36,314 nt of DNA from a virus. The number at the start of each line of letters is the position of its first letter. Position 1 is the stretch's first letter. Positions 27,043-36,314 of this stretch are shown here, piece by piece. The stretch is from the IMG/VR virus record IMGVR_UViG_3300025127_000112, positions 1 to 36,314 of that record; one strand, given 5' to 3'. A program made the position numbers and the translations under genes. Below the pieces are notes generated by a model. The model did no database searches and was not told the DNA's origin. It was given only the letters and a program-made list of their open reading frames with translations.

Positions 27043-27706
27043 CTGGAGGACTCCATATCTCATTTTGTTTTCTTTGTAGGTACAAAAGAATACCATTTTC
27101 AATTGCACGATCACGACTACCTAACTCTTCAACGCAGATATCGAACATCTCCTGTTCTGTTTTACCCTCTAAAAGTTTGTTTGCTTTAACAGGGCCGATA
27201 CCTCTTACACCAATAATGTTATCAATTCTATCTCCAGTTAAGAACTGACAATAAAAATTAAGCAATCCCTCTTCGGGTGTTATGTAATACTTCTCCTTCT
27301 TAACAAAATTATAGTGCCACCCTTGCACCTGATCAAAATCTTTATCTAAGGAAATGATAACGCTATCGTCACCGTACTCAGTACAAGCAATAGCAATAGC
27401 GTCATCAGCTTCATTCCCTTCAGTTATCACACCATTCCATCCAGTGAGTAAGTACTCGCGCAATAAAGCGTGGTGCGTTGGTTTTTCTCCTGTTCTAGTT
27501 CCTTTGTATGACGCAGTGATGGCGTAGTTATTCCGATAGTTTGTCGAGCCTGTTAGGTATGTTTTCCAATCATTGCACTCAATATCAAACATCAGCATAT
27601 CTTCTAAGAATGCGGCCATCGTGCGGATAGCCACGCTCTCAGACTCTTCATTCGTTGCAAACCCAATGCGATAGCAAAGAATGTCGCCATCAATTAATCC
27701 AATCAC
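27023..27706 (-). CDS. 5'-3' exonuclease (FEN family, T7 gp6-like)
   Basis: A 227-residue nuclease. Metal-binding acids: D6 and D8 (LIDGD), E97/E99/D101/D102 (EGNEADD), D121/D123 (LDKDFD), D159/D162 (TGDRIDN). A helix-3-turn-helix motif GVRGIGPVKA (166-175) holds DNA. In T7-type phages this enzyme removes RNA primers and exposes ends for recombination and for digestion of host DNA. The start is GTG 27706, overlapping the binding-protein stop by three bases. The C-terminal end is slightly shorter than T7 gp6. Confidence 0.88.
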   Translation of the reverse strand: MIGLIDGDILCYRIGFATNEESESVAIRTMAAFLEDMLMFDIECNDWKTYLTGSTNYRNNYAITASYKGTRTGEKPTHHALLREYLLTGWNGVITEGNEADDAIAIACTEYGDDSVIISLDKDFDQVQGWHYNFVKKEKYYITPEEGLLNFYCQFLTGDRIDNIIGVRGIGPVKANKLLEGKTEQEMFDICVEELGSRDRAIENGILLYLQRKQNEIWSPPDESPIS

Positions 27707-31853: not shown

Positions 31854-32016
31854 CTCTGTCTTCAATCGACATTAAATCATATCGCTCGATTGCTTTCACA
31901 TCGTCTCTAATGTATGAGTAACATTCATTACACAAATCTAAATAGTCGTCATAAGTTGTTGATTTCCTTGTAGATTCAAAATCATTTAACAACTTGTCGC
32001 AGGCTTGACATCGCAT
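31831..32016 (-). CDS. Small zinc-finger protein
   Basis: A 61-residue protein with two CxxC pairs, C3/C6 (MRCQAC) and C29/C32 (LCNECY), spaced to bind one zinc, followed by an acidic helix (RDDVKAIERYD) and SIEDRVDSEKNS. Similar short zinc proteins occur in T7-like and cyanophage genomes without a settled function. GGGG precedes ATG 32016. It overlaps the upstream DNA-binding gene by 31 bases. Confidence 0.75.
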   Translation of the reverse strand: MRCQACDKLLNDFESTRKSTTYDDYLDLCNECYSYIRDDVKAIERYDLMSIEDRVDSEKNS

Positions 32017-32276
32017 TTTTTACCCCATGCTTTGGTTATCATCCAATGCCCACAGGGTATCACACCATGCCACTCTTTGTCAAAGTCTCCGTTATGCAGA
32101 GTCCGTGACGCAACTTCAATACCATACTTGTGAGCATGATTCTTGATAAACGTAGATACAGAATGAGTAGTTCTACCTACTTCTTCAGCAATCTCTCGTA
32201 TGGTAGCGCCGTGACAGCGCATCTTACGCAACGTAGCAATCTGCGTTTCGGTCCAAAGATTCTTACGTCCACTCAT
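31986..32276 (-). CDS. GcrA/SANT-like helix-turn-helix DNA-binding protein
   Basis: A 96-residue protein. Residues 8-48 (LWTETQIATLRKMR, then HGATIREIAEEVGRTTHSV) form a Trp-led helix-turn-helix like the N-terminus of alphaproteobacterial GcrA and related Myb/SANT-type domains, which bind DNA near promoters. The C-terminal half has HGVIPCGHWMITKAWGKKC, with Cys/His possibly holding metal. GGGAG precedes ATG 32276. A phage transcription regulator is the natural reading; the target is unknown. The similarity to GcrA hints weakly at an alphaproteobacterial host. Confidence 0.65.
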   Translation of the reverse strand: MSGRKNLWTETQIATLRKMRCHGATIREIAEEVGRTTHSVSTFIKNHAHKYGIEVASRTLHNGDFDKEWHGVIPCGHWMITKAWGKKCDVKPATSC

Positions 32277-34773: not shown

Positions 34774-35025
34774 TTACTTCTCCTCAGACTTCGCTTTTAT
34801 CTCTTCAAGCTTTTCCTCACACCGCTTTACACGTAGTGCGTACCACTCAGACTCATGTGCAAGCACACGAAATAACTGCAATGCTCTCTCAAAGTTGTTA
34901 CGTGCGAGCGCCATGTAGTCACTATCAAAGTCACTATCGGCTTCGTGATACAAACACTCCGCAAAAAATGATAACTCACTCTCTGTGAGATCAAGCATAT
35001 TAAAAGTCTTACATTCTATTCTCAT
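34774..35025 (-). CDS. Small acidic helical protein behind an inverted-repeat element
   Basis: An 83-residue protein starting at ATG 35025 with GGAG seven bases upstream (GTG 35028 is too close). MRIECKTFNMLDLTESELSF, then LYHEADSDFDSDYMALARNN and a charged helix ending EEKLEEIKAKSEEK; it looks like an all-helical bundle. The TTTTGTA-TAC-TACAAAA element ends 13 bases before the start codon, so this gene begins a separately controlled early unit running through the glycosylase-like and methyltransferase-like genes. Confidence 0.75.
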   Translation of the reverse strand: MRIECKTFNMLDLTESELSFFAECLYHEADSDFDSDYMALARNNFERALQLFRVLAHESEWYALRVKRCEEKLEEIKAKSEEK

Positions 35026-35038
35026 CACTGTTCTCCAG

Positions 35039-35055
35039 TTTTGTATACTACAAAA
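35039..35055 (-). promoter_or_regulatory. Inverted repeat TTTTGTA-TAC-TACAAAA before gene 34774-35025
   Basis: Perfect 7-base arms around TAC. It ends 13 bases before ATG 35025, and its right arm merges with an A8 run that is the U-tract of the hairpin at 35060-35082. Same architecture as at 35422 and 36118. Candidate operator or phage-specific promoter. Confidence 0.75.
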
Positions 35056-35082
35056 AAAATATGGCGTTTCTCAACGAGCATA
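35052..35082 (-). terminator. Hairpin plus U8 upstream of the 35039 element
   Basis: On the minus strand TATG/CATA (arms 35082-35079 and 35063-35060) and CGTT/AACG (76-73 and 68-65) form a two-part stem with a GAGA tetraloop and a small internal loop, followed by eight U. It would stop or slow leftward transcripts from the upstream small genes just before the next unit. Confidence 0.6.
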
Positions 35083-35097
35083 CTGTTTAGACAAGGA

Positions 35098-35115
35098 AGA
35101 TCTAAAAAAGTTCCC
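35098..35115. repeat. 18-base repeat AGATC-N2-AAAAAGTTCCC shared with terminal repeat
   Basis: Bases 35098-35115 match 70-87 (and 36235-36252) except at the two central N positions. In both places it lies within about 50 bases of a TTTTGTA-N3-TACAAAA element. It may be a second protein-binding site or an old duplication of control sequence. Confidence 0.5.
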
Positions 35116-35117
35116 CA

Positions 35118-35297
35118 CTAAATTTCACTACACTCCTTTACATTATCCCAGTTAATCTCCTCAAGAACGCTGTCATCAAAGTACAGGTGTTTGATCACAA
35201 CCTCCTCCCCATCTTTGAAACGTATCCACAATTTGTCGCCAAACGACACCTCTGGAAATAGTTTCCTCCAGTATTCCGGTTCACACGCACACGTCAT
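35118..35297 (-). CDS. Small early protein, 59 residues
   Basis: ATG 35297 overlaps the upstream stop as ATGA. The protein MTCACEPEYWRKLFPEVSFG, then DKLWIRFKDGEEVVIKHLYF and DDSVLEEINWDNVKECSEI, has an N-terminal CxC and a later Cys, with a central two-strand motif. Just below a 60-residue cut-off. No family recognised. The short gap to the 35052-35082 terminator makes it the last gene of its small unit. Confidence 0.65.
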   Translation of the reverse strand: MTCACEPEYWRKLFPEVSFGDKLWIRFKDGEEVVIKHLYFDDSVLEEINWDNVKECSEI

Positions 35298-35401
35298 CGC
35301 TCAAATATCCACTCACAAATACCAACACAAACACCCAACAATAGTGAGACAGACCCCACTAACCCAATAACTACGAAAGCTAAATCCCAATCAATCCCCA
35401 T
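35294..35401 (-). CDS. Tiny single-pass membrane protein, 35 residues
   Basis: ATG 35401 is preferred over the adjacent ATG 35404 because AGGGGAG is then at better spacing. MGIDWDLAFVVIGLVGSVSL continues LLGVCVGICEWIFER: one clear membrane helix (about 8-29) with three acidic or polar flanks. It is the first gene after the 35422 element and is coupled to the next gene by ATGA. Small early membrane peptides can block superinfection or disturb host envelope functions; this is speculation. Confidence 0.65.
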   Translation of the reverse strand: MGIDWDLAFVVIGLVGSVSLLLGVCVGICEWIFER

Positions 35402-35421
35402 CATTCTCCCCTCATTTCAGA

Positions 35422-35438
35422 TTTTGTAGGGTACAAAA
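35422..35438 (-). promoter_or_regulatory. Inverted repeat TTTTGTA-GGG-TACAAAA before the 35401 gene
   Basis: Perfect 7-base arms around GGG. It ends about 20 bases before ATG 35401, and its A-run is the U-tract of the terminator at 35441-35468. On the minus strand the order is: end of the 209-residue gene, hairpin, U8, inverted repeat, ribosome-binding site, next gene. Confidence 0.75.
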
Positions 35439-35468
35439 AAAACCCTCTAGCGTTTCCGCCAGAGGGTT
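35435..35468 (-). terminator. Rho-independent terminator after the 209-residue early gene
   Basis: AACCCTCT (35441-35448) pairs with AGAGGGTT (35461-35468); an inner GCG/CGC pair set (50-52 with 57-59) extends the stem across one mismatch, with a four-base loop. On the minus strand eight U follow (A-run 35435-35442). It stands five bases after the stop of the early gene and ends that single-gene unit. Confidence 0.9.
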
Positions 35469-35473
35469 TCGGT

Positions 35474-36103
35474 TTAACCATTTACAACACTTGGAAAAAT
35501 CTCTGATTCCATGATGCACGTGGCTACTTCTAGTGCGATCTCTTCACCTAGCAGTACCTTGAGATTTTCAGCGATACTGCGCGGATCAGAGTCTTTGGGC
35601 ATTGTGAGGCTTATCATTTCAGACTTGCTATCTTCCGAGGTCTCAACCTCCTCAGATTCACTACCCTGCGTTGCGTTCTCAGACTGATCAGATCCGCCAT
35701 TGCCATTCGCTTCAGTCTTTAGCTTTTGAAGCTTCTTGTAGGACGTCTGTAATGACTTCTTACCGTCGATTGCTTCAATAACCATCGCCCTTTCACCTTC
35801 CACCATTGAGTGGAAAAGCCCGCGAATGTAGCTAACTCTTTGCCCGTGGTATGACTCCTCGGACTTATCGCCTCGGTTCTCTCTAAGGGCTTGAATGAAT
35901 GTATCAAGTATCTCATTCGAGAAGTGAGGTATAGCGCCTATCTGCTTTAACTTGGCTGGAAGCTTCGACAGTGTTGCCACGCCGATAAGGACCCGGAATT
36001 GGTCCAATATCTGCGCGTCCACTGTTTGAGCATCTGCAACTAGCTTCGAGAAGTTTGACGCAAAATTCGCCACGATCTGATCTTGTGATAGTAAGTTTTC
36101 CAT
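35474..36103 (-). CDS. Putative early regulator, 209 residues
   Basis: First gene of the leftward half, in a unit of its own between the 36118 element and the 35435-35468 terminator. The N-terminal domain (about 1-130) is helical. Residues about 105-127 (RAMVIEAIDGKKSLQTSYKK) resemble the AI-x2-G-x2-S-x3-AYK helix-turn-helix-like pattern of ParB/KorB-type proteins. Residues 133-162 are an acidic Ser/Glu-rich linker (GSESEEVETSEDSKSEM), and a short C-terminal domain (about 165-209) follows. GAGG lies before ATG 36103. A role as a DNA-binding switch protein is inferred from position and the weak motif; no family is recognised, and an anti-host role is equally possible. Confidence 0.75.
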   Translation of the reverse strand: MENLLSQDQIVANFASNFSKLVADAQTVDAQILDQFRVLIGVATLSKLPAKLKQIGAIPHFSNEILDTFIQALRENRGDKSEESYHGQRVSYIRGLFHSMVEGERAMVIEAIDGKKSLQTSYKKLQKLKTEANGNGGSDQSENATQGSESEEVETSEDSKSEMISLTMPKDSDPRSIAENLKVLLGEEIALEVATCIMESEIFPSVVNG

Positions 36104-36117
36104 TTTAATTACCTCTG

Positions 36118-36134
36118 TTTTGTAGAGTACAAAA
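36118..36134 (-). promoter_or_regulatory. Inverted repeat TTTTGTA-GAG-TACAAAA before the 209-residue gene
   Basis: Perfect 7-base arms around GAG, ending 14 bases before ATG 36103. On the minus strand it follows the hairpin 36193-36139 and a U8 run. If the 209-residue protein binds this sequence it would control its own gene. Confidence 0.75.
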
Positions 36135-36193
36135 AAAACGGGACCAACTACCGCGCTGTCTGTCTGTTAAATAACAGCGGGCATTCGGTCCCG
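36131..36193 (-). terminator. Large hairpin plus U8 upstream of the 209-residue gene
   Basis: CGGGACC (36139-36145) pairs with GGTCCCG (36187-36193), and inside it CGCTGT (36154-36159) with ACAGCG (36174-36179). On the minus strand eight U follow (36131-36138). It could terminate or attenuate leftward transcripts entering from the terminal repeat. The right arm lies in the repeat; the left copy differs at two paired bases, each of which would still pair as G-U in leftward RNA. Confidence 0.6.
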
Positions 36194-36314
36194 CAACGAT
36201 GCCGATTCGATTCGACATATTATTAAGACTGCCTAGATCGGAAAAAGTTCCCGTTCAATTGCTGAACGAATGTAGCTGTCTTTTGTAGGGTACAAAAAAG
36301 ATCTATGTGGGTGC
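36166..36314. repeat. Right copy of terminal direct repeat
   Basis: Right-hand partner of bases 1-149. It differs at 36177 and 36188 (G here). Both differing bases lie in the arms of the hairpin at 36139-36193, which is completed only in this copy because its other arm is at 36139-36159. Bases 24-149 of the left copy are identical to the corresponding bases here. Confidence 0.9.
36281..36297. promoter_or_regulatory. Inverted repeat TTTTGTA-GGG-TACAAAA in right terminal repeat
   Basis: Second occurrence of the 116-132 element caused by the terminal repeat. It is identical in sequence. From here leftward there is no convincing gene until 36103. Confidence 0.7.

Follow-up and report, generated by a model that had tools for sequence, protein, structure and literature searches.

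Palindromes repeated along the early genes of a podovirus-like phage, and the first early gene that varies with them

The DNA studied here, hereafter the window, is the whole of IMG/VR record IMGVR_UViG_3300025127_000112 (positions 1-36,314; 36,314 nt, one strand), in which the palindrome TTTTGTA-N3-TACAAAA recurs in front of the early genes. What reads this palindrome, and to what end? A preliminary description had proposed either a single palindrome-binding factor acting on terminator-insulated early units, with a 209-residue protein as candidate, or a promoter for a special polymerase. The window is that of a podovirus-like phage with a T7-like DNA polymerase and primase-helicase, ribonucleotide reductase, terminase and portal; late genes run rightward, and early and middle genes run leftward from the right end. 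Gene calls were mechanical, and the relatives used for comparison are all metagenome contigs, many of them partial.

The palindrome in the window

The perfect copies described at 35039, 35422, 36118, 36281 and 116 are all present. Direct inspection of the sequence showed that the window ends (1-149 and 36166-36314) overlap by about 149 bases with two mismatches, and contig L005, from the same phage, spans this junction with the same four palindrome copies in the same order. The copies at 116 and 36281 are therefore one, and four independent copies exist, not five. The two mismatches suggest two strain variants in the assembly, not a perfect terminal repeat; the left-end variant is the one carried by L005.

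A site overlooked earlier lies at 27073, perfect with a 2-base spacer. The degenerate copy reported at 231 has one half-site plus TAC only and cannot be told from chance. In a Markov-1 control a palindrome family (at least 3 copies, 6-base arms) arose in 1 of 40 simulated windows, with three copies only, and a larger family never did. The distance from copy to start codon, given earlier as 13-20 bases, was found to be 11/14, 14 and 17, which agrees within a few bases. The sites and the genes next to them are:

36281..36297, no strand: proposed operator O1, TTTTGTAGGGTACAAAA; the same copy as 116-132 across the end overlap
36118..36134, no strand: proposed operator O2, adjoining a U-run, with its end 14 bases ahead of the 209-aa gene's start codon
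35422..35438, no strand: proposed operator O3, adjoining a terminator U-run, 17 bases before the next start codon
35039..35055, no strand: proposed operator O4, directly before the ribosome-binding site of the 84-aa gene
27073..27086, no strand: proposed operator O5, TTTGTA-N2-TACAAA within the exonuclease gene
35474..36103, minus strand: first early gene, 209 aa, all-helical, proposed operator-binding autoregulator (divergence tracking palindrome class; structure model)
35294..35404, minus strand: gene of a 36-aa hydrophobic peptide, probably single-span, behind O3
34774..35028, minus strand: 84-aa gene downstream of O4

The position of O4 is shared with two relatives (L037 and L040), and the L040 counterpart of O5, TTTGTACCTACAAA, sits at the same codon position of the exonuclease (620/684).

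Palindrome classes and the first early gene

A primase scan returned 57 relative loci, most of them 72-83% identical. Most well-covered relatives bear a repeated palindrome, whose letters differ in many (GTTAAC-N3/4-GTTAAC, TTAGTC-AT-GACTAA, TTAA(G/T)CAT..TTAA or TTTGTA-N2/3-TACAAA). We distinguish the following classes:

class A: GTTAAC-N3/4-GTTAAC
class B: TTAGTCATGACTAA
class C: TTAATCATGATTAA
class D, that of the window: TTTGTA-N2/3-TACAAA
class E: TTAAGCATRCTTAA

Classes C and E intergrade, with hybrid sites in L014, L021 and L029 and one site of each in L028. Within the group a phage has 4-10 copies of one palindrome, along its early-gene half only. In 15 loci the early territory, 163 kb in total, holds 87 exact cognate sites by our count; the other 95 kb hold none, and exact foreign-class sites were absent from all 15 loci. 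Spacers occur in both orientations (GCC/GGC, CAA/TTG), as expected of a symmetric site. The nearest cultured relatives, on which the label 'marine' rests, are cobaviruses/SIO1-like phages and pelagiphage HTVC115P, with primases 49-54% identical. They differ from this group: the early halves of HTVC115P, ICBM1 and SIO1 hold no palindrome arrays of any class and no ECF-type promoter boxes. No close primase was found in bacterial genomes (GTDB).

The preliminary description had suggested looking for the palindrome in related phages. Unexpectedly, relatives share the genes and the site positions but have other palindromes, with an equally divergent first gene. Classes B, C, D and E each have, in their own spelling, a site immediately ahead of the first early gene's start codon, and C, D and E have one behind that gene's terminator. 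Behind the convergent terminator the site is of class A in L022, L045 and L047 and of class D in L039 and L040. At the metallophosphoesterase start the class A palindrome lies ahead of the ribosome-binding site, while in classes B and E the phage's own palindrome overlaps the start codon; in place of MKHM the protein then begins MTKHM (B) or MLKHM/MIKHM (E). The window and L040 lack a site at this start. In 8 of the 8 class A genomes checked the primase gene holds a perfect GTTAAC-N3-GTTAAC, read as GLTALTYG, GLTKLTYG or ELTALTYG; the primases of 12 other genomes mostly read G(V/L)N(D/G/E)LTYG, without the palindrome. The first gene of class A likewise has a class A site within its own codons (VN-x-VNL). 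As these palindromes stand inside class A codons at a cost in amino acids, selection appears to act on the DNA letters themselves.

Hydrophobic peptides of 33-37 aa, probably single-span membrane proteins, are encoded right behind the first early gene in L019, L029, L032, L014 and L092. In these class C/E relatives and L092 the position is conserved, with little identity to the peptide of the window.

The first early gene occupies the same place in all these phages and encodes 209 aa in the window and about 175-235 aa elsewhere. Its protein averages 59% identity within palindrome classes and 28% between them, and the window protein is 15-30% identical to those of all other classes. For all other gene families compared the between-class means are 51-91%, and most contain single pairs near 90% identical across classes. 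Mapped on the first-gene tree, the five palindrome classes require 4 changes, and 3 if C and E are counted as one, which is the minimum. The corresponding counts are 8/6 for primase, 9/7 for DNA polymerase, 8/6 for terminase, and 11/10 and 10/9 for two small early genes. The portal tree also reaches the minimum (3 changes), but with 15 rows only, and two further genes need 4 changes; linkage thus explains part of the co-variation between palindrome and first gene.

What this protein is was approached through profiles and models. The 209-aa protein has no significant match in Pfam or PHROG, and Foldseek searches with AlphaFold models (window protein, pLDDT 71; L019, pLDDT 70) gave no significant match in PDB or BFVD. 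A profile search of PDB returned mainly designed helical proteins, which we set aside as a composition effect. When three first-gene proteins were searched by tblastn against 50,697 phage records, no match was obtained. Two relatives' proteins show a sub-threshold likeness to the integrase SAM-like DNA-binding domain (E 0.002-0.009). In the models a disordered linker joins a helical N-terminal part to a pair of C-terminal helices, and our guess is that this pair might serve dimerisation. Class A proteins are clearly homologous to those of B/C/E (probability 98%). The window protein gives a weak profile match to the class A/B/C/E proteins (E 0.016, probability 2.8%), and is likely to be homologous to them judging from this match, its position and its helix pattern.

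Promoters and terminators of the early units

Early units were described as lacking an obvious sigma-70 promoter. This stands for the early stretch (one weak match, 3.1 expected), but boxes of ECF type are found there:

36224..36251, minus strand: ECF/sigmaE-type promoter box of the 209-aa gene, GGAACTT-N15-GTCTTA; repeated at 59-86 (end overlap)
35087..35114, minus strand: ECF/sigmaE-type promoter box of the second early unit, GGAACTT-N15-GTCTAA

These are the two occurrences of GGAACTT-N15-GTCT(A/T)A in the window, against 0.01 expected, and the E. coli sigmaE consensus is nearly identical. As putative promoters, identified by consensus match, they would explain the missing sigma-70 promoters, and they would put the early genes under an envelope-stress-type sigma factor. 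Among 37 non-redundant loci the stricter GGAACT-N15-18-GTCTAA occurs 13 times, always on the early strand, against none in five shuffles. Where a box serves the first gene, about 60-70 or 120-137 bases separate its end from the start codon, with one palindrome upstream of the box and another between box and gene. In the window O1 lies upstream of the box at 36224-36251; the first early transcript is expected to start about 70 bp downstream of O1. An operator upstream of a promoter box implies recognition on DNA.

Boxes GGAACT(T)-N15-GTCT(A/T)A also precede early units at L008 7311, L040 2306, L016 6293 and L093 6705. Relatives of classes A, C and E have 2-3 tandem sigma54-type boxes, TGGCAC(G/A)-N4-TTGC(A/T), 26-28 bp apart, upstream of the first early gene (L012 6127-6195, L045 6001-6069, L084 3720-3788, L013 3514-3582); one box of the tandem often reads TGGCAT, and single or double boxes are present in L032, L063, L021 and L028. 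Strict matches number 20 in 37 loci, all on the early strand, against 0-1 in shuffles, and none was found in the window. Read by eye, class A phages have sigma-70-like boxes, not ECF-type ones, between the first operator and the first gene (L085 upstream of 6000, L045 upstream of 6252, L012 upstream of 6372). Operator class and promoter type thus seem to have changed together. Searching the literature on ECF- or sigma54-driven phage early promoters, we found nothing relevant. Unlike the early units, the rightward late genes of the window are preceded by a textbook sigma-70 promoter at 440-475 on the plus strand (TTGACA, about 17 bases, TATACT).

Each palindrome had further been described as fused to the U-run of a hairpin. 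This is so at 35422 and 36118, which adjoin strong terminator-type hairpins (z -6.65 and -5.71), but neither at 35039, where the hairpin is weak (z -1.2), nor at 116/36281, where there is only a modest, non-terminator fold (z -2.1). The two strong structures are:

36138..36194, minus strand: long leader hairpin followed by U8, attenuator-like (-36.1 kcal/mol, z -5.7), between the promoter box and the first gene
35439..35470, minus strand: intrinsic terminator after the 209-aa gene, 14-pair stem, U8

The leader hairpin lies downstream of the 209-aa gene's own ECF-type box and would hence work as an attenuator, not an insulator. We found no promoter belonging to the copy at 35422, and an Rfam search gave no match. 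Fusion of terminator and operator is not general: in classes C, D and E the T's of the palindrome merely lengthen the terminator U-run, and in class A the two adjoin at the convergent end only. As a good hairpin is missing at two of the four copies, we gave up the idea that every early unit is insulated by a terminator.

Proposed operators and comparison with known systems

We favour, with some confidence, a reading in which a dimeric DNA-binding protein of the phage itself, most probably encoded by the first early gene, uses the palindromes as DNA operators and shuts the early genes down. The parts of this reading differ in strength. Established are the sites, their restriction to the early unit, the mutual exclusivity of the classes, the positions shared between relatives and the co-variation with the first gene. 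The data argue strongly for sequence-specific recognition of DNA by a phage factor that evolved with its sites. They argue with moderate force that this factor is the first early protein: the proposal of one palindrome-binding factor over the early units, with the 209-residue protein as best candidate, gains support from the way its sequence class follows the palindrome class across relatives. Most tentative is repression by roadblock, as opposed to activation, antitermination or DNA organisation. We infer binding by the 209-aa protein, its dimeric mode, repression through binding and the roadblock action. Counting against the favoured explanation, the 209-aa protein is without a recognised DNA-binding domain.

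In such a circuit the leftward early/middle unit would start from the ECF-type promoter boxes, and the first early protein would be made first. By binding the operator upstream of its own promoter, as well as that separating the leader from the start codon, it would limit its own synthesis. As it accumulates it may fill further operators along the unit, blocking initiation, elongation or both, so that early and middle transcription would be shut down at the switch to late genes. A further phage of this class entering the cell would be silenced likewise. Several times over, relatives would have changed the protein in step with its operators, which makes at least four specificities that exclude one another. 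No integrase, partition or lysogeny gene was seen among the window ORFs scanned (all large ones, about 40, and small ones in part), so 'immunity' may be early shut-off only.

Would the same protein act positively or structurally from these sites, as a genome organiser of the ParB/KorB kind or as an antitermination factor? Sites that are palindromic, scattered and partly intragenic, as for KorB, speak for it, and sites right behind terminators would suit a factor acting on a paused polymerase. An organiser without any site in 95 kb of late territory would be odd, however, and no ParB/KorB family match exists; from an antiterminator one would expect action upstream of the terminators. We regard this as unlikely. 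Another binder, either a small early protein (the 96-aa helix-turn-helix protein at 31986-32276) or a host regulator, is less probable still. The 96-aa protein has a weak homeodomain/resolvase-like helix-turn-helix match, and the first-gene protein has no such motif. But members of the 96-aa family reach 98% identity across palindrome classes and were called in only 10 of the 20 loci compared, and a host factor would not explain why 80%-identical phages switch class in step with a phage gene.

That the palindrome works in RNA, as a hairpin before the ribosome-binding site controlling translation or processing, is suggested by the many copies 11-17 bases before start codons and by a possible fold of 6-7 pairs with a 3-base loop. 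The 17-mer, however, has a folding energy of only -2 kcal/mol, copies are found upstream of promoter boxes as well as deep within primase codons, and the symmetric spelling hardly ever resorts to G-U pairs (of the near-cognate sites listed, one is a G-T variant). With so weak a fold, and with copies present where the promoter boxes would give no transcript, we reject this role, which has very little probability left. We give even less to the palindrome as promoter of a phage-specific RNA polymerase. Virion-polymerase promoters of phage N4 have a stem-loop geometry, which a stem with a 3-base loop resembles, and sigma-70 promoters are missing nearby. Against this, no RNA polymerase gene occurs among the scanned ORFs (all large ones, about 40), the sites are symmetric, some of them lying within genes such as primase, ahead of other promoter boxes or after the last gene, and the ECF-type boxes would provide promoters. 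The special-polymerase proposal was dropped for the lack of a polymerase gene among the scanned ORFs and for the intragenic sites.

Taken as operators for the first early protein, the palindromes would form a system that works like the stoperators of mycobacteriophages or the CIRs of phiC31, and that does not belong to the former and probably not to the latter. In working it appears most like the stoperators of cluster A mycobacteriophages. In L5 and TipsytheTRex many copies of the repressor site lie in promoters and short intergenic gaps, their spelling drifts with the repressor among relatives, and the 13-bp sites are asymmetric, orientation-dependent and bound by a helix-turn-helix monomer, the repressor having 183 aa (PMC6550527, PMC9283540). 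Shared are the many short sites in early territory, also outside promoters (here 87 early and 0 elsewhere), a spelling that varies with the proposed binder, a similar protein size (183 aa vs 209 aa), and a site in the upstream region of the (proposed) repressor's own gene. The present sites, however, are symmetric with spacers in both orientations, whereas stoperators take one orientation with transcription. Further, the stoperator repressor has an N-terminal helix-turn-helix and a stoperator domain, whereas the phage protein matches nothing in Pfam, PHROG or PDB, and here the proposed binder is the first early gene's product, with no integrase or parABS seen.

The CIRs of phiC31 and the C1 operators of P1 are sites of about 17 bp across the early region, some at promoters and some not, and those of phiC31 are inverted repeats. 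Inverted repeats of about 17 bp scattered in the early region are found here too, but the repressor families and hosts are probably others; the 209-aa protein has no significant match to any Pfam or PHROG family. KorB, with KorA on plasmid RK2, is a global regulator acting from palindromic sites spread over a replicon, and is a CTP-dependent clamp of the ParB family (PMC11790492). The spread of palindromic sites is alike, but ParB-type CTPase and helix-turn-helix domains have no Pfam match in 25 relatives or the window protein. From temperate-phage immunity the system differs in having no integrase or partition genes among the scanned ORFs.

We may, with considerable reserve, be dealing with apparently virulent marine podoviruses that possess a multi-operator shut-off or immunity circuit, built on an undescribed helical DNA-binding protein with at least four exclusive specificities within about 80%-identical phages, with rewritten primase codons and with early transcription under host stress-type sigma factors (sigmaE/ECF, tandem sigma54-like boxes). 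The relatives amount to a natural experiment: near-identical genomes, the same site positions, four to five spellings and one gene diverging alongside. They allow the recognition code of a new protein family to be read, and allow testing whether mutual exclusion among apparently virulent ocean phages follows operator class. To our knowledge, operators that are scattered in this way and whose specificity evolves have mostly been linked to temperate actinobacteriophages until now; the same logic would here be at work in an uncultured marine podovirus lineage with T7-like replication genes.
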